Below the pieces are notes generated by a model that saw nothing but the letters and a program-made list of their open reading frames with translations, was not told the DNA's origin and searched no databases. From Stenotrophomonas sp. MMGLT7 (GTDB lineage: Bacteria; Pseudomonadota; Gammaproteobacteria; Xanthomonadales; Xanthomonadaceae): a DNA stretch of 64,000 nucleotides. Positions 5,205 through 59,604 of the stretch are shown here, in pieces (position 1 is the stretch's first letter; each line of letters begins with the position of its first letter). The stretch covers positions 62,001 to 126,000 of the forward strand of contig NZ_JAJOZS010000002.1 of the NCBI RefSeq assembly GCF_021168555.1. The letters are read 5' to 3'. The translations under genes and the position numbers were made by a program.

Positions 5205-7211
5205 TCATTGTCCGCTGTTTGCGGCAGCGGCGCCCGCATCGCCGGGATGACCGAAGAACGCCTGCACGTCGGCGATGTCGCGGGTAAGGGCGAACGGCGG
5301 CAGCGAATCCAGGAACACCCGGCCGTAGCCGCGGCGGGTCAGGCGCGGATCGCACAGCACCAGCACCCCGCGGTCGCTCTCGCTGCGGATCAGCCGGCCC
5401 ACGCCCTGCTTGAGCGCGATCACCGCCTGCGGCAGCTGCTCGTCGCGGAACGGGTTGCCGCCGTCGCGGCGGATCGCCTCCAGCCGCGCCTCGTACACCG
5501 GCTCGTCGGGGGCGGCGAACGGCAGCTTGTCGATCACCACCACGCTCAGCGCATCGCCGACCACGTCCACGCCCTCGCGGAAGCTGGCGCTGCCCAGCAG
5601 CACGCCGTTGCCGGAGTCGCGGAAGCGCTGCAGCAGGCTCGCGCGCGGCGCCTGCCCCTGCACGAACAGCGGCCACGGCGCGTCGCGCAGCGCCTCGGCG
5701 GCCTCGCGCAGCGCGCGGTGCGAGGCGAACAGCACGAACGCCCTGCCCTGCGATGCCTGCAGCACCGGGAACAGCGCCGCGATCAGCGCGGTGCCGTAGC
5801 CGCGCGCGTTCGGGTCGGGCATGTCCGGCGGCAGGTAGCACAGCGCCTGGCGGCTCCAGTCGAACGGGCTGGGCTGCATCAGCGTCGGCGGATCGTCCAG
5901 CCCCAGCCGCCTGGCGATGTGCTCGAAGTCGCCGTCCACTGCCAGCGTGGCCGAGGTGAACACCCAGGCCGCGCGCGATTGCTCGCGGTGCTGGCGCAGC
6001 GGCGCGGACACGTCCAGCGGCGTGCGCTGGCAGCGGAAGCCGCGCGGCGTCAGCTCGTACCACAGCACGTCCGACGACGGCGGCGGCGCCTCCTGGTCGA
6101 AGTCGGCCACCGGCTGGTCCTCGCCCAGCCAGCGCGCCAGCCGGCCCCGCGCCTCCAGTGCCCGCGCCGCGCACGCCTGCAGCCCGGCCGAGGCCTCGCC
6201 CAGCGGGACCAGGATCTCGCCCAGGTTGGCCAGCGCCGTCATCAGGGCATCGAAACCGTCGCGCACCTCGGGCCTGGCCAGCGCGCGCCATTGGGTGCCG
6301 CGTGCCGGCAGGCCCTCGAGCGCCGCGCGCAGGTCGCGCAGCGACGCTTCCAGCGCCTGCACCGGCTGCTGCAGGCTTGCCTGGGCGCCGGCGACGCTGC
6401 GGCTCTCGGCCAGGCAATCGCGCGCCAGTTCCTGCCACGGCCGCATGCCGAAGCCTTCGCCGAAGAAGTTGGCCGCCAGTTCCGGCAACTGGTGCGCCTC
6501 GTCGATCACGAACGCCTGCGCGCCCGGCAGGATCTCGCCGAAGCCCTCCTGCTTGAGCGCCAGGTCGGCCAGCAGCAGGTGATGGTTCACCACCACCAGG
6601 TCGGCCGCCTGCGCGCGCTGGCGCGCCTGCACCACGAAGCACTCGTCCCAGAACGGGCAGTCGCTGCCCAGGCAGTTGTCCACGGTGGAAGTGACCATCG
6701 GCAGCAGCGGCGAATCGTCCGGCAGCGACTCCAGCTCGGCCATGTCGCCGAACTGGGTGCGCCCGCTCCAGGCGACGATGCGCTGGAACTGCGCGACCAG
6801 CTCGTGCCCGCCGAAGCCGGCGTTCAGGCGCTGCGGTTCGCCGCGCGCCTGCTGCAGGCGGTAGCGGCACAGGTAGTTGGCGCGCCCCTTGAGCAGCGCA
6901 CTGCGCAGGCCGATGCCGAGCGCGGCGCGCACGCGCGGCAGGTCGCGGTGGTAGAGCTGGTCCTGCAGCGCGCGGGTGCCGGTGGAGACGATGGTCTTCA
7001 GGCCCGACAGCAGCGCCGGTACCAGGTAGGCGTAGGTCTTGCCGGTGCCGGTGCCGGCCTCGGCCAGCAACACGTCGCGATGGTCGAAGGCCTCGGCGAT
7101 GGCCGCGGCCAGCCGCAGCTGCGCCGGCCGCGACCGGAATGCATCGAGCTGGCGCGCGAGCGCGCCGTCCTCGCTGAGGGCTTCGAGGCTGGCTTGGGCG
7201 AGTAAGGACAT
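5205..7211 (-). CDS. yoaA: DinG-family (YoaA-like) ATP-dependent DNA helicase
   Basis: A 668-residue XPD-like superfamily 2 helicase. Walker A is GTGTGKTYAY near residue 53, the DEAH box lies in FVIDEAHQLPE, and cysteines of the iron-sulfur domain are seen in NYLCRYR and CLGSDCPFWDEC. The C-terminal helicase motifs appear in GSASFREGVDVVGD and QGVGRLIRSE. Family members unwind damaged or structured DNA during replication stress. The length is closer to YoaA than to DinG of E. coli. The start is the ATG at 7211. The gene is divergent from the TonB-dependent receptor across 388 bp. Confidence 0.9.
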   Translation of the reverse strand: MSLLAQASLEALSEDGALARQLDAFRSRPAQLRLAAAIAEAFDHRDVLLAEAGTGTGKTYAYLVPALLSGLKTIVSTGTRALQDQLYHRDLPRVRAALGIGLRSALLKGRANYLCRYRLQQARGEPQRLNAGFGGHELVAQFQRIVAWSGRTQFGDMAELESLPDDSPLLPMVTSTVDNCLGSDCPFWDECFVVQARQRAQAADLVVVNHHLLLADLALKQEGFGEILPGAQAFVIDEAHQLPELAANFFGEGFGMRPWQELARDCLAESRSVAGAQASLQQPVQALEASLRDLRAALEGLPARGTQWRALARPEVRDGFDALMTALANLGEILVPLGEASAGLQACAARALEARGRLARWLGEDQPVADFDQEAPPPSSDVLWYELTPRGFRCQRTPLDVSAPLRQHREQSRAAWVFTSATLAVDGDFEHIARRLGLDDPPTLMQPSPFDWSRQALCYLPPDMPDPNARGYGTALIAALFPVLQASQGRAFVLFASHRALREAAEALRDAPWPLFVQGQAPRASLLQRFRDSGNGVLLGSASFREGVDVVGDALSVVVIDKLPFAAPDEPVYEARLEAIRRDGGNPFRDEQLPQAVIALKQGVGRLIRSESDRGVLVLCDPRLTRRGYGRVFLDSLPPFALTRDIADVQAFFGHPGDAGAAAANSGQ

Positions 7212-7599
7212 GGGAATGGGGGATACGGCATCGGAGGATCGGGAAAGCGCGACTCCGGGAACCAAGGCCTCCCAAGCCCTTGCCAGGACCGGCAGTGACT
7301 GCCGCCGCATGTGCGCCGGCCCAGTATCGCAGAGCCGCCGTTGCCGATCACCGGCAACGGTACCCGCGGCCTGCAGGCCGGCCCGGCTGCGCCCCGCCCG
7401 CGGCACGGGCCCTGGACAGGCGCCGCCGCCGCTTTTCGCGTCGCGTTCCACGGCTCCTGCATGACGCCCGGCGGTTCCACGCGTGGGTGTCTTTGGCTAT
7501 GCTATCGAGAACCACTTGCATTTATCTCTCTCCACTTTTCGTGCCGCCTGCCACCGACCCCGGTCTCCGCCAGCCGCACGTTTCAGGGCCTCCAACTTC
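7212..7599. other. Divergent intergenic region with a candidate Fur box
   Basis: This 388-bp space holds the promoters of the helicase gene (minus) and the receptor gene (plus). The half near the receptor contains the 19-bp Fur-like site listed separately. The other half is GC-rich with no coding frame I can support. Confidence 0.6.
7501..7519 (+). promoter_or_regulatory. Candidate Fur box upstream of the TonB-dependent receptor
   Basis: The 19 bases GCTATCGAGAACCACTTGC match the palindromic Fur consensus GCAAATGAGAATCATTTGC at 14 of 19 positions by direct comparison, including both outer GC pairs and the central GAGAA. The site is 81 bp before the receptor start codon, a usual place for iron repression. 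The site is seen; binding is inferred. Confidence 0.5.
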
Positions 7600-24125: not shown

Positions 24126-24312
24126 GAGCGTGGGCGGCAGAAACGTTCGAGGCGAAGCGCTTCACCACGGCGAAGCTGGGTCGAAGTTCGCTGTGCGAGG
24201 CAGGTCTTGCGGCGATTCGCCGGCCTGTAGCCGCGCTACGGGCCGAGAAGCGGCACGAAGGCGGACCGCATCGGCGGGCTCGCAACCCGGACGGCTTCTG
24301 CCGCCCACGCTC
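24126..24312. repeat. Element with 17-bp inverted ends at the end of hrpA (MITE-like), copy 1
   Basis: The ends GAGCGTGGGCGGCAGAA (24126-24142) and its exact complement (24296-24312) enclose about 150 bp of non-coding DNA that fills the pqqE-hrpA gap. The right end overlaps the hrpA stop codon. A diverged second copy without a clear right end lies at 32867-33000. Confidence 0.7.
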
Positions 24313-27300
24313 TAGCTTGCCTGCGCCCGCAGCGCCGCCACCCGCTGCGCCAGCTTCTTGGCCGAGATGCCGGACTTGAAGCCCAGTTCCTGCGCGAACA
24401 GCGACACCCGCAGTTCCTCCAGGTCCCAGCGCAGCGCCTGCCACTGCGGGCGCTGCTGCAGCCCCTGGGCGGCGGCCTCCTCCAGCGCTTCGATGAACGG
24501 CCGCAGCTCCAGCATCCGCGCCTGGTCGCGCGGCGGGTCGCGCTTGGCACGCTCGGCGCGCAGGATCATCGCCTTGAGATAGCGCGGGAACTGCGACAGC
24601 GCCTCGGCCGGGGTCTCGCGCAGGAAGCCCGGATGCACCAGCGCCGCCAGCTGCGCCAGCATGTCGTCGAGGTTGCCGCGCGCCCAGCCCATCAGCGGGG
24701 CGTCCAGCGCCGGCTTCACCTCTGCCACGCCGGCCATGATCTTCTCGGCCAGCTGCAGCCGCGCCATCGCCTCGCCGAACAGCGCCTTGCCGGCGGCCTC
24801 GCGGCGCTGCTCGAACGCGGCGCGCTCGCGGATGCCGTCCAGACCCTCGGCCAGCACCGCGTTGAGCGCGGCGTCGACCAGGTCGCCGCGCAGGCGTTCC
24901 TGCGATTCGATCGCCGCGTACAGCAGCCCGGTCTTGGGCGACACCGGCAACTGCTTGCGCGCCTGCTTGATGCGGTCGGCCAGTGCGATCTCCAGCAGCC
25001 GGCGCACACCGCGCGGATGCGCCTCGGCCGCCTCGGTGCGGTCGGCGAAGATGCGCAACGCGGCGGTATCGCCCCCGCTTTCGGACGCGGTATCCACCAG
25101 CGCCGGATACGCCGGCACGCCGGCCTCGCCCGGTACCTGCGCGGGGATGGCCGCGGCGGGGAAGTCGCGCAGCCCCTCGGCCGCCAGTTCGCGCCCGGCG
25201 CGCACCGCGAATGCCTGCCCGGCGCGCTCGCCGAAGCGCTCGCGCAGCGCATCGAGGTCGCGCGATTCGGCCAGCACCTTGCCCTGCCCGTCGCGCAGGC
25301 GCAGGTTCATGCGCAGGTGCGGCTCGAGCGCGGCCTCGTCGAAGTCGGTGGCCGCCACCTGCGCGCCGGTGGCGCGCGACAGGAACCGCGCCAGCTCGCC
25401 GCGGATGTCGTCGGCCCCGGGCTGCGCGAACGCCTCGAAGAACGCGCGGCCGAAGTCCGGCGCCGGCACGTAGTTGCGCCGCTGCGCCTTGGGCAGCGTG
25501 CGGATCAGCTCGGACGCCTTCTCGGCGACGAAGCCCGGCGCCAGCCACGACAGCCGCGCCGGGTCCAGCGCGCCGAGCAGGTGCAGCGGCACCTCCAGCG
25601 TCACCCCGTCGTCGTCCGCACCCGGCTCGAAACGGTAGTGCAGCGCCAGCCGCGCATCGCCCAGCGGCAGGTACTTGGGATAGCGGTCGGCCCCGCTGCC
25701 CTCGCCGGGCAGCAGGTCGGCCAACGACCAGCGCAGCACGCGGCGCTTGTCCTCGGCCAGCGTCTTCCACCATGCGTCCAGCCCGGCTGACGAATGGATC
25801 TGCGGCGGGATCCGGTCCAGGTACCAGCGCGCCTGCCAGTCCTCGTCGGCGACGATGCCGGCGCGGCGCAGCTTGGCCTCCTCCTCGCGCGCCTGCTCCA
25901 GCACCTTGAGGTTGTCGGCGAGGAAACCGGCGCGGGTGTCGATCTCGCCGGTGACCAGCGCCTGCCGCACGAAGATGTCGTGCGCACCGGCCGGGTCGAT
26001 GGCGCCGTAGCGCACCGGCTTCTTCGGCGCCAGCACCAGGCCGAACAGGCTGATCTGCTCGGACGCGACCACCTGCCCCTGCGCGCGCGACCAATGCGGG
26101 TCGAAGTGCTTGCGCGCCAGCAGGTGCGGCAGCTCGGCGATGGCCCAGTCCGGCTCGATCGCGGCCAGGGTCAGGCCCCAGACCTTCTGCGTGTCCAGCA
26201 GCGTGGCGGCGAGCACCCACGGCGGCGGTTTCTTCGCCAGTGCCGAGCCGGGAAACGGCAGGAAGCGGCGCTGCCGCGGGGCCTGGAAATCGCCCTTGTC
26301 GGTGCGGTGGCCGAGTTGCGTCGGCAGGCCGGCGATCAGCGCTCGATGCAGCGCCTGGTAGGCGGCGGCACGCACGCGCTCGCCGATGCGCGGGGATTGC
26401 TCGGAATCGGCTTCGCCTTCGCGGACGGCGGCTCGACCATTGCCAGTGGCAATCGAGCCACCGACCGGCTTGTCGCCATTTCCCGGAGCAAGCGAACCCG
26501 TCTTTCCCTCCCGCGCCAGCCGCGCGGCGCGGTGCAACTGGCCGCGGGTCAGCCGCGCCTTGGCCTCGCCAGCGGCCGGCTGTGCCGGTGCAGCGGCCAG
26601 CAGCGGCTCCAGCGACGCCGCCTGCGCCTCCTCGCTCCAGCCCAGTTCCTCGCACAGCAGCCGCAGCTGGCGGTGCAGCTCGCGCCACTCGCGCATGCGC
26701 AGGAAGCCGAGGAAATTCCGCCCGCACCAGTCGCGCAGCTTCGATTGGGTCAGGTCCTCGTGCGCCTGGCGGTAGCCGTCCCACAGGCGCAGGATGCCGA
26801 CGAACTCCGAGCGCGCGTCGGCGAACCTGGCATGGGCGTTGTCGGCCGCCTCGCGCGCCTCCGGCGGCCGTTCGCGCGGGTCCTGGATGCCCAGGAACGA
26901 GGCGATCACCAGCATCGGCCGCAGGCAGCCGTGCTGCTGCGCCGCCACCAGCATCCGCGCCAGCTTCACGTCCACCGGCAGCCGCGCCATGCGCCGGCCG
27001 GTCTCGGTGAGCTTGCGCAGGCCGTGGCGGTCCGGCTCGCCGACCGCGCCCAGCTCCACCAGTTGCTGCCAGCCGTCGGCCACCGCGCGCTCGTCCGGCG
27101 GCTCGATGAAGGGGAAATCCTCGATCCGGCCCAACCCGAGCTGCAGCATGCGCAGGATCACCCCGGCCAGCGACGAGCGCCGGATCTCGGGGTCGGTGAA
27201 CTCCGGGCGCGCCTGGAAATCGGCCTCCGCGTACAGCCGGTAGCACACGCCCTCGGCGATGCGCCCGCAACGGCCCTTGCGCTGGTTGGCGCTGGCCTGG

Positions 27301-28559
27301 CTGATCGGCTCGATATGCAGCCGGTCCAGCTTCTGCCGCGGACTGTAGCGCTTGACCCGGGCGTAGCCGGGATCGACCACGTAGCGGATGCGCGGCACCG
27401 TCAGCGAGGTCTCGGCGACATTGGTCGCCAGCACGATGCGCCGCTGCGGCCCCGGGTTGAACACCCGGTCCTGGTCCTTGGCCGACATCCGCGCGTACAG
27501 CGGCAGCACCTCGGTGGCGCGGTACTTGCGTCGCTCCAGCGCGAGGTGGGCATCGCGGATCTCGCGCTCGCCCGGCAGGAACACCAGCACGTCGCCGCGT
27601 GCGTCCTCGCGGGTGATCTCGTCCACCGCGGCGACGATGGCGTCGTTGACAGTGAGGCCGGGATTGGGGATTCGGGATTGGGGATTGGCAGAAGCGCGAG
27701 CAGCCGAACGCTCGCCGCGCCCCGCCGTTTCGAATCCCGAATCCCGAATCTCCGATCCCGGCTCTTCCAGCGGCCGGTAGCGCACCTCCACCGGCCAGGT
27801 GCGGCCTTCCACGTCGATCACCGGCGCGCCGTCGAAATGGCGGGCGAAGCGCTCGGTGTCGATGGTGGCCGAGGTCACGATCAGCTTCAGGTCGGAGCGC
27901 TTGCGCAGCAGCTGCTTGAGGTAGCCCAGCAGGAAGTCGATGTTCAGGCTGCGCTCGTGCGCCTCGTCGACGATGATCGTGTCGTAGCGCGACAGCCAGC
28001 GGTCGCTGGCGATCTCGGCCAGCAGGATGCCGTCGGTCATGAACTTGATGCGGCTGTCCTCGCCGACCTTGTCGGTGAAGCGCACCTGGTAGCCGACCAC
28101 GCTGCCCAGCGGCGAATGCAGCTCCTCGGCCACCCGCGCGGCCACCGCGCGCGCGGCGATGCGGCGCGGCTGGGTGCAGCCGATCATCCCGGCGGTGCCG
28201 CGGCCGGCCGCCAGGCACAGCTTGGGCAGCTGCGTGGTCTTGCCCGAGCCGGTCTCGCCGGCGATCACCACCACCTGGTGGTCGCGGATCAGCGCGGCGA
28301 TGCGCTCGGCCTCGCGCGCGATCGGCAGCGACTCGTCCAGCGTGATCGCCGGCTGGCTCTGCAACCGCGCCTGGCGCTGCCGCACGGACGCCTGCAGCGC
28401 CCCGGCGAAGGCTGCGCTCGATTGGGCATTGCCCGGCTGGGCCCGCCAGCGCGACCATAGGCCGATCAGGCGGCCGCGATCGCGGCTCATCGCGCCGTCG
28501 ATCGCCTGCCGTTGTTCACGCAGTTTCGCGTCTTGATCCACTTCAATAGACGACATCAA
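24312..28559 (-). CDS. hrpA: HrpA, DEAH-box RNA helicase with an in-frame repeat insertion
   Basis: A 1415-residue helicase (E. coli HrpA 1300). Walker A GETGSGKT is at 101-108 and DEAH at 198-201. Helicase-C motifs follow (ATNVAETSLTVP, GRCGR), then winged-helix and OB-like domains and a long C-terminal DUF3418-type region. HrpA rescues stalled or collided ribosomes in E. coli. Residues about 267-301 (EPGSEIRDSGF through SRIPNPGL) are encoded by a GGGATT-armed repeat placed between the helicase ATPase lobes and are absent from ordinary homologues as I know them. The frame stays open. The stop codon lies in the inverted-end element described above. Start ATGATG at 28559. Confidence 0.94.
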   Translation of the reverse strand: MMSSIEVDQDAKLREQRQAIDGAMSRDRGRLIGLWSRWRAQPGNAQSSAAFAGALQASVRQRQARLQSQPAITLDESLPIAREAERIAALIRDHQVVVIAGETGSGKTTQLPKLCLAAGRGTAGMIGCTQPRRIAARAVAARVAEELHSPLGSVVGYQVRFTDKVGEDSRIKFMTDGILLAEIASDRWLSRYDTIIVDEAHERSLNIDFLLGYLKQLLRKRSDLKLIVTSATIDTERFARHFDGAPVIDVEGRTWPVEVRYRPLEEPGSEIRDSGFETAGRGERSAARASANPQSRIPNPGLTVNDAIVAAVDEITREDARGDVLVFLPGEREIRDAHLALERRKYRATEVLPLYARMSAKDQDRVFNPGPQRRIVLATNVAETSLTVPRIRYVVDPGYARVKRYSPRQKLDRLHIEPISQASANQRKGRCGRIAEGVCYRLYAEADFQARPEFTDPEIRRSSLAGVILRMLQLGLGRIEDFPFIEPPDERAVADGWQQLVELGAVGEPDRHGLRKLTETGRRMARLPVDVKLARMLVAAQQHGCLRPMLVIASFLGIQDPRERPPEAREAADNAHARFADARSEFVGILRLWDGYRQAHEDLTQSKLRDWCGRNFLGFLRMREWRELHRQLRLLCEELGWSEEAQAASLEPLLAAAPAQPAAGEAKARLTRGQLHRAARLAREGKTGSLAPGNGDKPVGGSIATGNGRAAVREGEADSEQSPRIGERVRAAAYQALHRALIAGLPTQLGHRTDKGDFQAPRQRRFLPFPGSALAKKPPPWVLAATLLDTQKVWGLTLAAIEPDWAIAELPHLLARKHFDPHWSRAQGQVVASEQISLFGLVLAPKKPVRYGAIDPAGAHDIFVRQALVTGEIDTRAGFLADNLKVLEQAREEEAKLRRAGIVADEDWQARWYLDRIPPQIHSSAGLDAWWKTLAEDKRRVLRWSLADLLPGEGSGADRYPKYLPLGDARLALHYRFEPGADDDGVTLEVPLHLLGALDPARLSWLAPGFVAEKASELIRTLPKAQRRNYVPAPDFGRAFFEAFAQPGADDIRGELARFLSRATGAQVAATDFDEAALEPHLRMNLRLRDGQGKVLAESRDLDALRERFGERAGQAFAVRAGRELAAEGLRDFPAAAIPAQVPGEAGVPAYPALVDTASESGGDTAALRIFADRTEAAEAHPRGVRRLLEIALADRIKQARKQLPVSPKTGLLYAAIESQERLRGDLVDAALNAVLAEGLDGIRERAAFEQRREAAGKALFGEAMARLQLAEKIMAGVAEVKPALDAPLMGWARGNLDDMLAQLAALVHPGFLRETPAEALSQFPRYLKAMILRAERAKRDPPRDQARMLELRPFIEALEEAAAQGLQQRPQWQALRWDLEELRVSLFAQELGFKSGISAKKLAQRVAALRAQAS
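27659..27761. repeat. GGGATT-armed repeat, copy a (inside hrpA)
   Basis: The left arm has repeated GGGATT/GGGGATT units, the right arm AATCCCGAATCCC units, with about 45 bp between. The element is translated in frame as hrpA residues about 267-301. The same arm design recurs five more times in the window. Confidence 0.85.
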
Positions 28560-34688: not shown

Positions 34689-34691
34689 GGG

Positions 34692-34842
34692 AATGGAGAT
34701 TCGGGATTCGAGATTCGGGATTCGTCAGAAGCTACGGCATCGCGGCGGGCCTTGCTTTCCAGGCTGGAAGCTCAAGATCGTGCGGGGACTCCGGGGCGGG
34801 GACGCTTCTGCGAATCCCCAATCCCCAATCCCCCAATCCCGG
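34692..34842. repeat. GGGATT-armed repeat, copy b (queE-queC gap)
   Basis: It has a left arm with GATTCGGGATTCG units and a right arm with AATCCCCAATCCCC units, with about 85 bp between, including TCAGAAGC on the left and its complement-like GCTTCTGCG on the right. It occupies almost the entire gap between queE and queC. Confidence 0.85.
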
Positions 34843-34850
34843 CCCCTCAG

Positions 34851-40770: not shown

Positions 40771-41232
40771 TCAGTAATCGGAATCGGTTGTTTCAAGGGC
40801 TTGGAGCTTGTCGTGCAACGCGTCGTCCATGGCGCGCGGCCGGAAATTGTGCGCCGAAAGCGCCGCCACTTTCACCTCGGCGGCAAGCAGCAGTTCACCT
40901 TCGCGGCGCACCGACTGGGCGAACACCAGGCTGGCACGCTTGCACCGCGCAAGCGCGACGGTCACGTCCAGGGCATCGTCCAGCCGCGCCGGCTTGAGGA
41001 AATCCAGGCGCATCGAACGCACCGCGAATACCAGGTCGTGCTCCAGGCGCATGCGCTCCTGGCCGTACCCCAGCGACCGCATCCACTCGGTGCGCGCACG
41101 CTCCATGAAGGCCACGTAGCGCGCGTGGTAGACCACGCCGCCAGCGTCGGTATCTTCCCAGTAGACGCGTGTCGGCCAACTGAATAGGCGGGGTTGCGGG
41201 TTGGGGGTTGGGGATTGGGTCGTCAATGGCAT
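40771..41232 (-). CDS. ybgC: YbgC, Tol-Pal-linked acyl-CoA thioesterase
   Basis: A 153-residue hot-dog thioesterase. The catalytic region is YWEDTDAGGVVYHARYVAFMERARTE, where the aspartate of DTD is the 4HBT-type catalytic residue. It is first of the ybgC-tolQRAB-pal-cpoB operon. The first 16 residues (MPLTTQSPTPNPQPRL) are encoded by a GGGATT-armed repeat that sits in the ruvB-ybgC gap. No other start codon is available before the conserved YWEDTD, so the repeat appears to supply the start. Confidence 0.93.
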   Translation of the reverse strand: MPLTTQSPTPNPQPRLFSWPTRVYWEDTDAGGVVYHARYVAFMERARTEWMRSLGYGQERMRLEHDLVFAVRSMRLDFLKPARLDDALDVTVALARCKRASLVFAQSVRREGELLLAAEVKVAALSAHNFRPRAMDDALHDKLQALETTDSDY

Positions 41233-41288
41233 GGCAGCGGCATCAGAACAGGCTCTCCGAATCCCCGATCCCCAATCCCGATTCCCGC
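41191..41288. repeat. GGGATT-armed repeat, copy c (ybgC start / ruvB end)
   Basis: The left arm reads GGGTTGGGGGTTGGGGATTGGG, the right arm CCGAATCCCCGATCCCCAATCCC. The left arm lies inside the first codons of ybgC and the right arm inside the last codons of ruvB, so both gene ends are built from the element. Confidence 0.85.
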
Positions 41289-42286
41289 ACCCTGGGCGTC
41301 AACCCCAGGTGCAGGTAGGCCTTGCGGGTGGCCATGCGTCCGCGCGCGGTGCGTATCAGGAAGCCCTGCTGGATCAGGAAGGGCTCGACCACGTCCTCGA
41401 GCGTGCCGCGCTCCTCAGACAGCGAGGCGGCCAGCGACTCGACCCCGACCGGGCCGCCGTCGAAATGGTCGACGATGGTGCGCAGCATGCGCCGGTCGAG
41501 TTCGTCGAAGCCCTCCGGATCGACCTTGAGCATCTGCATGGCCGCCTGCGCCACCGCGCTGTCGATGTGGCCGCCGGCCCTGACCTGGGCGTAGTCGCGC
41601 ACCCGCCGCAGCAGCCGGTTGGCGATGCGCGGGGTGCCGCGCGCACGGCGGGCGATCTCGCCGGCGCCGTCGCCGCTGCAGTCGATGCCCAGGATCGTCG
41701 CCGAGCGGCGCACGATCCGGGTCAGTTCCTCGGGCGAGTAGAACTCCAGCCGCTGGACGATGCCGAAACGGTCGCGCAGCGGCGCGGTCAGCAGGCCGGC
41801 GCGGGTGGTGGCGCCAATCAGGGTGAACGGCGGCAGGTCGATCTTGATCGAGCGCGCGGCCGGGCCCTCGCCGATCATGATGTCGATCTGGAAGTCCTCC
41901 ATGGCCGGGTACAGGACCTCCTCGACCACCGGCGACAGGCGGTGGATCTCGTCCACGAACAGCACGTCGTGCGGCTGCAGGTTGGTCAGCAGCGCCGCCA
42001 GGTCGCCGGCCTTCTCGATCACCGGGCCGGAGGTGACGCGCAGGTTCACCCCCAGCTCGTTGGCGATGACGTGGCTGAGGGTGGTCTTGCCCAGTCCGGG
42101 CGGGCCGAAGATCAGCACGTGGTCGAGCGCGTCGCCGCGGGCCTTGGCGGCCTCGATGTAGATCGACAACTGCTCGCGCACCGGCTGCTGGCCGAGGTAG
42201 TCGTCCAGCCGCTTGGGCCGGATGCTGGCCTCGACGGCTTCGTCCTCGCGGGTGACAGTGCTGCCGATGATCCGTTCGCTGGTCAT
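41243..42286 (-). CDS. ruvB: RuvB, Holliday-junction branch-migration ATPase
   Basis: A 347-residue AAA+ motor. Walker A is [13 protein letters not shown], Walker B is FVDEIHRL, and the winged-helix domain follows with [15 protein letters not shown] near the end. The last 14 residues ([14 protein letters not shown]) are encoded by the GGGATT-armed repeat and do not look like the normal RuvB tail. With RuvA it drives branch migration. It is separated from ruvA by kup. Confidence 0.96.
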
Positions 42287-44317: not shown

Positions 44318-44905
44318 TCAGCGCAGCGCGGCCTGCAGGGCCTTGCGGATGACCGTGGCGACATCGTCGCCCTCGCCGCCGGCGTCGCGCGCCATGCGCG
44401 CCGCCTCGGCCGGCTTGTAGCCCAGCTGCTGCAGCGCCACCGACGCCTCGGACACCGGGTCGTTGCCGAGCTGGCTGCTGATCGGCGCCCCGCCGCCGCC
44501 GAACTGGTCGGCGCGGTCGCGCAGTTCCACCACCATGCGCTCGGCGGTCTTCTTGCCGATGCCGGGGATGCGGGTCAGCGCGGCGACGTCGCCGGTCTGC
44601 ACCAGCCGTGCGAACTCGTCCACGCTCACCCCCGACAGCACCGCCAGCGCGATCTTGGCGCCGATGCCGGACACCCGCTGCACGTCGCGGAACAGCCTGC
44701 GCTCGCCCTCGCGCAGGAAGCCGTACAGCGACACGCTGTCCTCCTTCTGCGCGTAGTGGGTGAACAGGGTGACCTCGCGGCCCAGGTCGGGCAGGTCGTA
44801 GAAGGTGCTCATCGGCGTCTCCAGCTCGTAGCCGACGCCGCCGACGTCGATCACCAGCCACGGCGGCTGCTTGTAGGCCAGGATGCCGCGCAGGCGGCCG
44901 ATCAT
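44318..44905 (-). CDS. ruvA: RuvA, Holliday-junction binding protein
   Basis: A 195-residue tetramer-forming protein. The N-terminal OB fold ([20 protein letters not shown]), the HhH motifs ([13 protein letters not shown] and [13 protein letters not shown]) and the C-terminal RuvB-binding domain are all present. The start is the ATG at 44905. Its ribosome-binding site AGGAGG is inside a perfect hairpin (see 44908-44927). Confidence 0.96.
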
Positions 44906-44907
44906 GG

Positions 44908-44927
44908 GGCGCCTCCTTGGAGGCGCC
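44908..44927 (-). promoter_or_regulatory. Hairpin that buries the ruvA ribosome-binding site
   Basis: On the minus strand the sequence reads GGCGCCTCC-AA-GGAGGCGCC followed by CCATG. The Shine-Dalgarno bases AGGAGG are part of the right arm of a 9-bp perfect stem directly before the ruvA start, so the site would be hidden unless the stem opens. Confidence 0.7.
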
Positions 44928-45020
44928 GGGATTGGGGACTGGGGATTGGGGATTCGTCGAAGCGGGATCGCGCGGCTGTTGCCGTTGCCGTGCCAATCCC
45001 GAATCCCGAATCCCGAATCG
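44927..45020. repeat. GGGATT-armed repeat, copy d (ruvC-ruvA gap)
   Basis: The left arm holds GGGATTGGGGACTGGGGATT units and the right arm CCAATCCCGAATCCCGAATCC. It fills most of the gap between ruvC and ruvA, next to the ruvA hairpin. Confidence 0.85.
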
Positions 45021-45029
45021 CTGCTTCGT

Positions 45030-45551
45030 TCATTTCCGGCTCCAAGCCTGTCTGGTATCCACTCCCAGGCGGCGCGCGGTCGCGCGCACGTGGGCGTGGG
45101 TGATGGCCACCGCCAGCGCATCGGCGGCGTCGGCCTGCAACTTGCCCTGCAGGTTGAGCATGACCCCGACCATGTGCTGGACCTGGACCTTGTCCGCCCC
45201 GCCCTTGCCGACCACCGCCAGCTTGATCTCCTTGGCGGCGTACTCGTGCACCGGCAGGTCCTGCATCACCACGGCGCAGATCGCCGCGCCGCGGGCCTGG
45301 CCGAGCTTGAGCGCGGAGATCGCGCTCTTGCCCATGAACACCTGCTCGATCGCCACCTCGTCGGGCCGGTACTCCTCGATCAGTGCGTTCAGCCCCTGCG
45401 CCAGCAGCTTCAGCCGCCGGGCGAAGTCCTCCGCGCCCAGCAGCACCAGCGGCACGTGATGGACATGGCGGGTGCGCCCGGCATCGTCGATGTCGATGAT
45501 GCCCACGCCGGTGCGCTGCGAACCGGGATCGATGCCGAGGATGCGGGTCAT
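45030..45551 (-). CDS. ruvC: RuvC, Holliday-junction endonuclease
   Basis: A 173-residue resolvase. The catalytic acids are visible in [11 protein letters not shown] (D7), AIEQVFMG (E) and [10 protein letters not shown] (two aspartates). It cuts junctions after RuvAB branch migration. It is followed, through a repeat-filled gap, by ruvA and preceded by yebC, a common gammaproteobacterial order. Confidence 0.96.
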
Positions 45552-45558
45552 GGGAGGA

Positions 45559-45650
45559 CCGGGATTGGGGATTCGGGATTGGAGATCAGTGAAGAGCGTA
45601 CGCCGACGCGGACGGGCCGCCTCGGCGATTCCCCGATCCCGAATCCCGGG
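45559..45650. repeat. GGGATT-armed repeat, copy e (yebC-ruvC gap)
   Basis: The left arm is CGGGATTGGGGATTCGGGATTGG, the right arm CCCCGATCCCGAATCCCGGG. It fills the gap between yebC and ruvC. Confidence 0.85.
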
Positions 45651-45656
45651 GCGCCA

Positions 45657-51919: not shown

Positions 51920-51974
51920 GCAGGAGCAATGCAGGAGCAATGCAGGAGCGATGTAGGAGCGATGTAGGAGCGAC
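51920..51974. repeat. 11-bp tandem repeat leading into a REP
   Basis: Five head-to-tail units: GCAGGAGCAAT twice, GCAGGAGCGAT, GTAGGAGCGAT, then GTAGGAGCGAC, which is the start of the REP pair. The units become progressively more like the REP head. Confidence 0.85.
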
Positions 51975-52031
51975 TTCAGTCGCGACGGGGCTTTACCGGT
52001 AGAGTCCCTTCGCGACTGAAGTCGCTCCTAC
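51964..52031. repeat. REP pair (68 bp), copy 1
   Basis: A 22-bp arm beginning GTAGGAGCGACTTCAG and its exact inverted complement flank a 24-bp centre containing ACCGGT. Identical arms and identical total length occur at two other places. The GTAG start is that of REP families mobilised by RAYT transposases; no RAYT gene is in the window. Confidence 0.9.
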
Positions 52032-52133
52032 ATGGCTCCTGCGGGTCACTGCACGCCGGCATTGCCGGGTCGCTGCACGTCCGCGGCTGCGTAGCCACGC
52101 CCGACCGGCCGCCGCACTGCAGGCACCCGCGGA

Positions 52134-55249: not shown

Positions 55250-55317
55250 GTAGGAGCGACTTCAGTCGCGATGGGGCCTTACCGGTAGAGCCCGATCGCG
55301 ACTGAAGTCGCTCCTAC
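55250..55317. repeat. REP pair (68 bp), copy 2
   Basis: The two 22-bp arms are identical to copies 1 and 3, with an ACCGGT centre. It lies between two convergent genes and could serve as a shared end structure. Extra partial GGAGCGACC/GTCGCTCCTAC units flank it. Confidence 0.9.
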
Positions 55318-55364
55318 AGTCGCTCCTACGGGTGCTCCTGCGCGGATCGACCTCCTGACGGCCC

Positions 55365-57366: not shown

Positions 57367-59304
<1,938 letters not shown>

Positions 59305-59457
59305 CCGGGGAGGACTCGTAAATAACCAAAAGGAATGAGCAGATGAGCAGCATTCCTGCGACGCCATTCTAGCGTTAACGAATACTTGACACTCCATAGC
59401 CGCCGTCCCCCATGTCTGCTCCCCCGTCGAAACACTGCGGGAACACCGCGAAACGCT

Positions 59458-59525
59458 GTAGGAGCGACTTCAGTCGCGATCGGGCTCTACCGGTAAAGCC
59501 TCATCGCGACTGAAGTCGCTCCTAC
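59458..59525. repeat. REP pair (68 bp), copy 3
   Basis: The two 22-bp arms are identical to copies 1 and 2, with an ACCGGT centre and equal total length. It lies between divergent genes, upstream of the second TonB-dependent receptor. Confidence 0.9.
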
Positions 59526-59604
59526 GGGTCGCTCCTGCAGTCGCCCGCGGCCATCCAGCGATCTGTGCCTGCCCCGTGGCGACCGTTTTCAGGCGAAACC
59601 TGTT

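Follow-up and report, generated by a model that had tools for sequence, protein, structure and literature searches.

A DNA repeat of inverted tandem heptads lies in frame in hrpA of Stenotrophomonas sp. MMGLT7, and heptad inserts also occupy the same linkers of purL and of an ABC-F-type ATPase gene in several genera. It appears that in relatives of Xanthomonas such repeats have turned into loops of housekeeping proteins on repeated occasions (hrpA, purL, ABC-F). For hrpA, we regard a tolerated in-frame insertion of a dispersed repeat, inherited and presumably translated, as the probable origin of the additional residues. In the following, the window is the whole stretch of 64,000 nucleotides that was analysed; its features are listed in Table 1.

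Table 1. Heptad elements in the window and the hrpA gene
Feature	Position	Strand	Description and evidence
hrpA, ATP-dependent RNA helicase	24312..28559	-	open 1415-aa ORF; TIGR01967 DEAH_box_HrpA, 1437 bits (NCBIfam)
Inverted heptad element in hrpA	27658..27762		105 nt = 35 codons, in frame; outer ends GCCGGGAT..ATCCCGGC
First arm of hrpA element	27658..27686	+	four GGGATTN units (sequence)
Second arm of hrpA element	27733..27761	-	four units, including one GAGATT and one GGGATC (sequence)
Copy in ABC-F-type ATPase gene (57367..59397, -)	58250..58327		in frame; R1 74.2 bits; translation
Copy giving last 14 residues and stop of RuvB (41243..42286, -)	41188..41287		R1 49.3 bits; translation; RuvB NF000868, 530 bits
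Intergenic copy filling gap 34689-34850	34694..34841		R1 64.3 bits; ORF ends 34688, 34851
Intergenic copy filling gap 45552-45656	45559..45655		R1 71.1 bits; ORF ends 45551, 45657
Copy read as intergenic, between aligned genes	44926..45023		R1 79.1 bits; upstream ORF stop 45030

An inverted heptad element in the HrpA reading frame

The hrpA element is composed of four GGGATTN units, an A-rich core with AGAAGCG, a loop and a mirror arm. Its tandem G-rich heptads are of the GGGANTN type, with four units per arm where at least two were asked for. Terminal inverted repeats are present, i.e., the arms pair over about 21–29 nt, and as DNA the stretch 27659–27761 is predicted to fold into a single long hairpin of −38.1 kcal/mol. 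The covariance model R1, built on 12 copies including the one in hrpA, matched this element at 27658–27760 on the plus strand with 90.0 bits and at 27659–27761 on the minus strand with 82.0 bits. In the whole-genome model search the hrpA copy was third among the 150 matches listed. An earlier note on this DNA had described positions 27659–27761 as an extragenic-type repeat within an open hrpA frame. The R1 matches place the element within 1–2 bases of these coordinates, the 1415-residue ORF that NCBIfam names HrpA runs open through it, and the plus-strand score identifies it as a member of a dispersed family.

In the protein, the insert corresponds to about residues 267–301, between ..TSATID.., which we take to belong to the first RecA-like domain, and ..LVFLPGERE.., which we take to belong to the second. 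The solved HrpA chain 6zwx_A, presumably the E. coli protein, aligned to its position 269 and resumed at 277, its linker is therefore short. We modelled a 566-residue part of HrpA with AlphaFold2 (29 sequences, mean pLDDT 78.9). The 35-residue insert was predicted with pLDDT below 50 and without secondary structure, the flanking strand and helix with confidence. From this model, the insert is presumably a disordered loop that connects the two RecA domains and is compatible with the fold. Judged from its open frame, it is presumably translated in the cell.

The hrpA linker in relatives

The earlier note had expected the insert to be absent or variable in related HrpA proteins, and this was borne out. 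Among 129 rows of hrpA linkers, in which at least 11 loci appear under two ids, two or more heptad hexamers were found in 13 rows (12 distinct loci) and a single one in 5; solved HrpA chains had short linkers. A stretch carried by all HrpA relatives, which the note had named as evidence against its reading, was not what we found: 111 of the 129 rows had no heptad hexamer at all. The heptad-positive loci belong to genus codes g1 (the window's own), g6, g23 and g36 and to named Pseudoxanthomonas, and two g6 genomes (G005, G193) had a linker without the insert. P. winnipegensis and P. composti carry an insert of equal length at the same site, in frame and with partly decayed heptads, and the insert of Pseudoxanthomonas sp. 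CF125 at this site is 6 nt longer. Since these species share the site, sequence comparison indicates that the hrpA insert is neither private nor recent; nor is it universal.

As a separate observation, the hrpA linker of P. yeongjuensis (L060) contains another short palindrome, GTGATTCCGAGGAATCAC, possibly the remnant of a further repeat.

Copies in the window and in the genome

We searched the window for the heptad pattern with up to three mismatches and obtained 28 overlapping matches, whereas 100 dinucleotide shuffles gave 0.13 on average. The window contains six clear copies, two of them gene-internal, one at the RuvB C-terminus and three intergenic; a seventh match at 7210–7353 was weak (15.3 bits, E 0.21) and was left out of this count. 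The earlier note had assigned the further copies to intergenic gaps. This applies to those starting at 34694, 44926 and 45559, whereas the copy at 58250–58327 is located within the ABC-F gene and that at 41188–41287 ends RuvB. The ABC-F copy is placed between VES and VVVLHDVGFGL, directly before the second ABC domain, in a gene whose best NCBIfam matches include ABC-F families with scores under their cut-offs. The copy starting at 44926 is likely intergenic; read from the flank, a gene start is likely near 44905. A longer ORF (44318–45121) would span this copy, yet it is absent among the 28 same-frame cases given below. Almost exact filling of the gap between a stop and the next gene by an intergenic copy was seen at 34689–34850, at 45552–45656 and in L028.

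The genome has at least 84 distinct elements, counted in the 150 matches that are listed for the inverted-pair model. Because 150 scored matches of 5808 candidates are listed, 84 is a lower bound, and fractions such as 2/84 are not rates. Neither the ABC-F copy nor purL site A was picked up in this survey. For 28 of the 84 listed elements the best coding frame was identical on both sides. Only the hrpA and purL elements (2/84) were stop-free over the element and its 300-nt flanks, i.e., genic copies are a minority of the distinct listed elements. The length of the model match was divisible by three in 25 of the 84, a number that is uninformative on net insertion length because the hrpA match has 103 nt though its insert is in frame. 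Outward extension of the arms yielded exactly four units in 118 of 159 arms, three in 10 and five or more in 31; the search model itself had four units, so that arms of this length were favoured. The AAGC core occurred in 64 of the 159 arms, compared with a mean of 13.5 in shuffles. The element family is dispersed and has a conserved core.

At three sites in G000 (C4:85024-85109, C34:255016-255098 and C12:258808-258910) genes apparently end in an element, from which 1 to about 11 C-terminal residues are derived.

Inserts at the same purL and ABC-F linkers

The purL gene of the window genome (NF003672 PurL, 1934 bits, NCBIfam), for which this genome has one match at E up to 1e-60, contains two inserts, at sites A and B; the open frame revealed the second, a GGGAAT-type insert. 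We compared 50 purL loci, i.e., the 30 best matches and 20 chosen ones, from the 193 matching genomes of 198. The counts below are not frequencies, because the query itself contained the inserts and biased the 30 best matches towards them. Two loci with unreadable site B (L295, L299) were dropped, leaving 48 rows, of which 46 had a readable site A (L267 and L274 had none). The site patterns for hrpA, purL and ABC-F demand a continuous frame, and off-frame alleles would therefore escape them.

Site B is located between VGKDSLSMQAQW and KSVSPVSL and consists of exactly 7 residues in 17 of the 48 rows. Heptads were found here in 24 rows, a bare or short linker in 21 and other inserts in 3. The heptads were of the GGGATT (10 rows), GGGAAT (8 rows) or GGGACY type (6 rows), and by eye a fourth type, GTGATT, was seen in L283 and L294. 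At site A, 18 of the 46 rows had heptad inserts, including two doubtful labels (L300 with two hexamers in a 327-nt insert, L253 with both types in equal number), 9 had other long inserts and 19 were short. At both sites, the heptad type varies from genus to genus. On a quick purL tree with the linkers removed, in which gain is indistinguishable from loss, presence at site B changed at least 10 times and type at least 21 times; for site A these numbers were 5 and 19, respectively. A palindrome-like insert of the CCCTTCTCCCGCC..GGGAGAAGG type was also found at site A in g23 and g59. Of 30 ABC-F loci, 5 were unreadable; 3 of the remaining 25 (g1, g51, g62) had heptads in the linker, and others had other inserts. 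In-frame palindromic repeats occur across unrelated protein genes, i.e., in hrpA, at two sites of purL and in ABC-F.

Several further in-frame sequences were seen at these linkers. At purL site A, L269, L275, L281 and L300 (g10, g28, g51, g61) have a GGCCCGGCGCAGCACGCCGGGCG-like, palindrome-like insert with GCGCGGCAGTG, and L271 has an insert that encodes PHPNPSPEGRG. In other genera, inserts encoding LLPP.GEGARRADEG or PPRAGE.ARRADGG are found both at purL site A (L272, L282, L284) and in ABC-F (L307–L311). A small palindrome like GACCAGCCTGCGGCTGTNGAGGAGC appears to be nested in or beside a heptad arm in hrpA (L224, L225) and at purL site B (L260, L283, L252).

Arms of the purL inserts match within alleles

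Each left arm was paired either with the right arm of its own allele or, in 20000 permutations, with right arms swapped between alleles. At purL site B, own arms paired better than swapped ones; none of the 20000 permutations reached the observed pairing at three arm lengths (n = 25, 25, 23). Within g25 alone, 13, 4 and 77 permutations did so (n = 8, 8, 7), within g6 alone 162, 241 and 281 (n = 7). Site A gave the same result as the full site B set, with 0/20000 permutations at two arm lengths (n = 16). The test had no signal for hrpA, where 6045 and 3544 of 20000 permutations did equally well (n = 12). When codons were shuffled at purL site B, 23 of 25 alleles had z ≤ −1.6; the exceptions, L266 (z 0.1) and L273 (z 1.2), have no hairpin. 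At purL the arms are matched within the allele.

Judged from the allele sequences, both purL arms tend to change heptad type together. In the clearest pair, the loci L258 and L263 are 97.6% identical over 4 kb, and the type of both arms differs, being GGGATT in one and GGGAAT in the other. Their site B cores have 21 of 23 letters in common, compared with 17 of 23 for the best of the 84 listed elements of the window genome. This common, locus-specific core suggests that one heptad type may have become the other around a kept core.

Joint arm type could be due solely to whole elements or alleles being inserted or exchanged by homologous recombination, without any process between arms, and we consider this quite possible, if short of probable. 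Xanthomonas recombines, site B of L263 is very similar to that of L264 whereas the locus as a whole has 97.6% identity with L258, and the L263 allele could have come by recombination from an L264-like donor; the arm test, moreover, is blind to the difference between arm-to-arm copying and insertion or exchange of whole elements. An L264-like donor, however, leaves unexplained why, in g25, the GGGATT and the GGGAAT allele have a locus-specific core in common, and mixed alleles exist, e.g., site A of L253 with GGGAAT on the left and GGGATT on the right. Tentatively, and as a somewhat unlikely case, we propose that flexible core-gene linkers of Xanthomonadaceae are standing landing pads on which dispersed hairpin repeats settle, and that hairpin-templated copying from arm to arm would then rewrite the PurL linker peptide on both sides, selection acting only to preserve the frame and to exclude stops.

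Origin of the inserts

We propose that a dispersed, usually non-coding inverted heptad repeat entered the hrpA linker in an ancestor of this Pseudoxanthomonas-like species and its relatives. The insert would have been retained because it keeps the frame, carries no stop and falls in a loop that tolerates extra residues, and it would be nearly neutral for the protein. The same event would have been repeated in core-gene linkers across genera, i.e., at two purL sites and in one ABC-F gene, in each case by a mover or another route of insertion followed by survival of the frame-keeping copies only. After insertion the repeat would continue to behave as such, with purL arms switching type together through templated copying between arms or through conversion or recombination in which other copies or alleles take part.

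The earlier note had read the repeat as able to move into genes and become peptide. Movement is deduced from the distribution; a transposition event, a mover or a target-site duplication was not seen. The mean longest direct repeat in the flanks was 0.95 compared with 1.13 in shuffled sequences (n = 75), and 0.96 compared with 1.00 in another run. The repeat could nevertheless be a MITE or REP that is moved by RAYT or another transposase of the genome: it has inverted ends, the conserved AAGC core and a high copy number. The missing target-site duplication speaks against this, and for RAYT, where Y1_Tnp alone was examined, so do the Y1_Tnp counts (PF01797), which do not track heptad counts in 15 genomes (11 matches and no GGGATT triple in G070, 1 match and 355 triples in G123). 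Moreover, both Y1_Tnp matches of the window genome sit among GTAG-type palindromes, although a heptad element is located at a distance of about 2.1 kb from one match (L303). We hence regard a transposase-moved MITE or REP as unlikely, and a RAYT-moved repeat as unsupported. Another explanation would be a contingency locus, where gain or loss of a single 7-nt unit shifts the frame and toggles hrpA (phase variation). Seven is not a multiple of three, 31 of the 159 arms have five or more units, and heptad arrays vary among Xanthomonas strains, e.g., the MLVA locus Xe_09 with GGGATTT in a range of 6–18, according to the accessible text of PMC8002079. However, the hrpA, purL and ABC-F inserts are in frame, although continuous-frame patterns would miss off-frame alleles, most arms (118 of 159) consist of exactly four units, and the host genes are housekeeping genes. 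Phase variation is also argued against by Rehm et al. in the accessible part of their report (PMC4692102), and we consider it very unlikely here.

The stretch could also be an ordinary low-complexity linker, conserved or convergent, with only a resemblance to the repeat. In the family, the hrpA linker does vary in length, and G, E, R and P are often frequent in it. Yet the stretch matches the dispersed family with 90 bits, has heptads in both arms and the core AGAAGCG, while purL site B is either the bare 7 residues (17/48) or has a heptad insert (24/48). The absence of the repeat from most hrpA rows (111/129) largely refutes this reading, and we hold it to be extremely unlikely. Pre-adaptation of the repeat to all six frames was rejected as the main cause, its open-frame advantage being modest. 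Pure GGGATTC, GGGATTG and GGGATTT arrays are open in six frames, GGGATTA arrays are not. In real elements, 4.68 of 6 frames are open on average (78%), compared with 3.73 in dinucleotide shuffles. There is hence no strong coding pre-adaptation, because 78% is little above the 72% per frame found for 96-nt stretches of the window.

Independently of the heptad elements, the window contains three long GTAGGAGCGACTTCAGTCGCGA-type palindromes (GTAG REP-like) at 51964–52032, 55250–55318 and 59458–59526. The same sequence also flanks a Y1_Tnp (RAYT-like) match of this genome on another contig (L303).

Discussion

In-frame selfish palindromes are best known from Rickettsia; the Xanthomonadaceae group includes freely growing members. 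The present inserts would make it a second group, one in which heptads of several types and other palindrome-like inserts share the linkers of hrpA, purL and ABC-F in several genera. Natural full and empty alleles give a chance to gauge the cost of in-frame inserts, and the joint arm type in coding sequence is a record against which ideas on how inverted repeats maintain matching arms can be tested. For annotation, a peptide of this kind in a conserved protein can be a translated repeat. If linkers are indeed landing pads with templated arms, the linker peptide of a purine-synthesis enzyme would be written by DNA secondary structure.

Like the REP elements with RAYT transposases, the element is a dispersed palindrome with an extragenic bias, and GTAG-type palindromes are also found in the window genome. 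The heptad element differs from REP in sequence and lacks the GTAG tag; both Y1_Tnp matches of this genome are found amid the GTAG-type palindromes. Enterobacterial RU and ERIC sequences are, in the accessible text of Delihas 2007 (PMC2759123), small intergenic mobile repeats that also occur inside annotated genes with the frame kept. They belong to another host group, and recurrence at one linker across several genera is absent from that account as far as it is accessible.

Closer in kind are the Rickettsia palindromic elements (RPE), reportedly described by Ogata et al. in 2000 and 2002. In-frame palindromes are known from Rickettsia also through PMC10969869, in its accessible part. By this description, our element resembles RPE as a palindromic repeat that is in frame in unrelated genes (RPE have about 150 bp and lie in metabolic genes), and for HrpA only, by prediction, also in the compatibility of the insert with the host fold. 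In contrast to RPE, the host group is unrelated, each arm consists of heptads in tandem, and a given linker carries different heptad types across genera. We do not class the element as RPE.

The most similar repeats are the G-quadruplex-forming repeats with a GGGNATC heptamer in Xanthomonas and Nostoc described by Rehm et al. 2015 (PMC4692102). According to the accessible text, two Xanthomonas genomes have 186 and 183 arrays with 70 and 75 inverted pairs, 11% and 7% being intragenic, and CD data for GGGAATC oligonucleotides are given for G-quadruplex formation in vitro. In that text the heptads are treated as simple sequence repeats, no role in protein is suggested, and the words in-frame, amino acid and peptide are absent from the main text. 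Our elements are like these repeats in being G-rich heptads, often four per array, often in inverted pairs and mostly intergenic, and they have the same traits of a four-unit preference and many dispersed copies as inverted pairs (at least 84). Unlike the repeats in the accessible description, our elements share a conserved core and are found repeatedly, in frame, within named core genes. In a report on gluten-like peptides in Fischerella and Nostoc proteins, translated heptads are visible and their origin is unmentioned in the accessible text (PMC8430993). In a literature search mostly outside subscription journals, we came across no previous account of heptad repeats being translated as part of hrpA or purL. 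The repeat class and in-frame palindromes as such are already known; new, as far as these searches show, is the recurrence, and the case is strongest for the recurrence at fixed linkers and for the matched arms.
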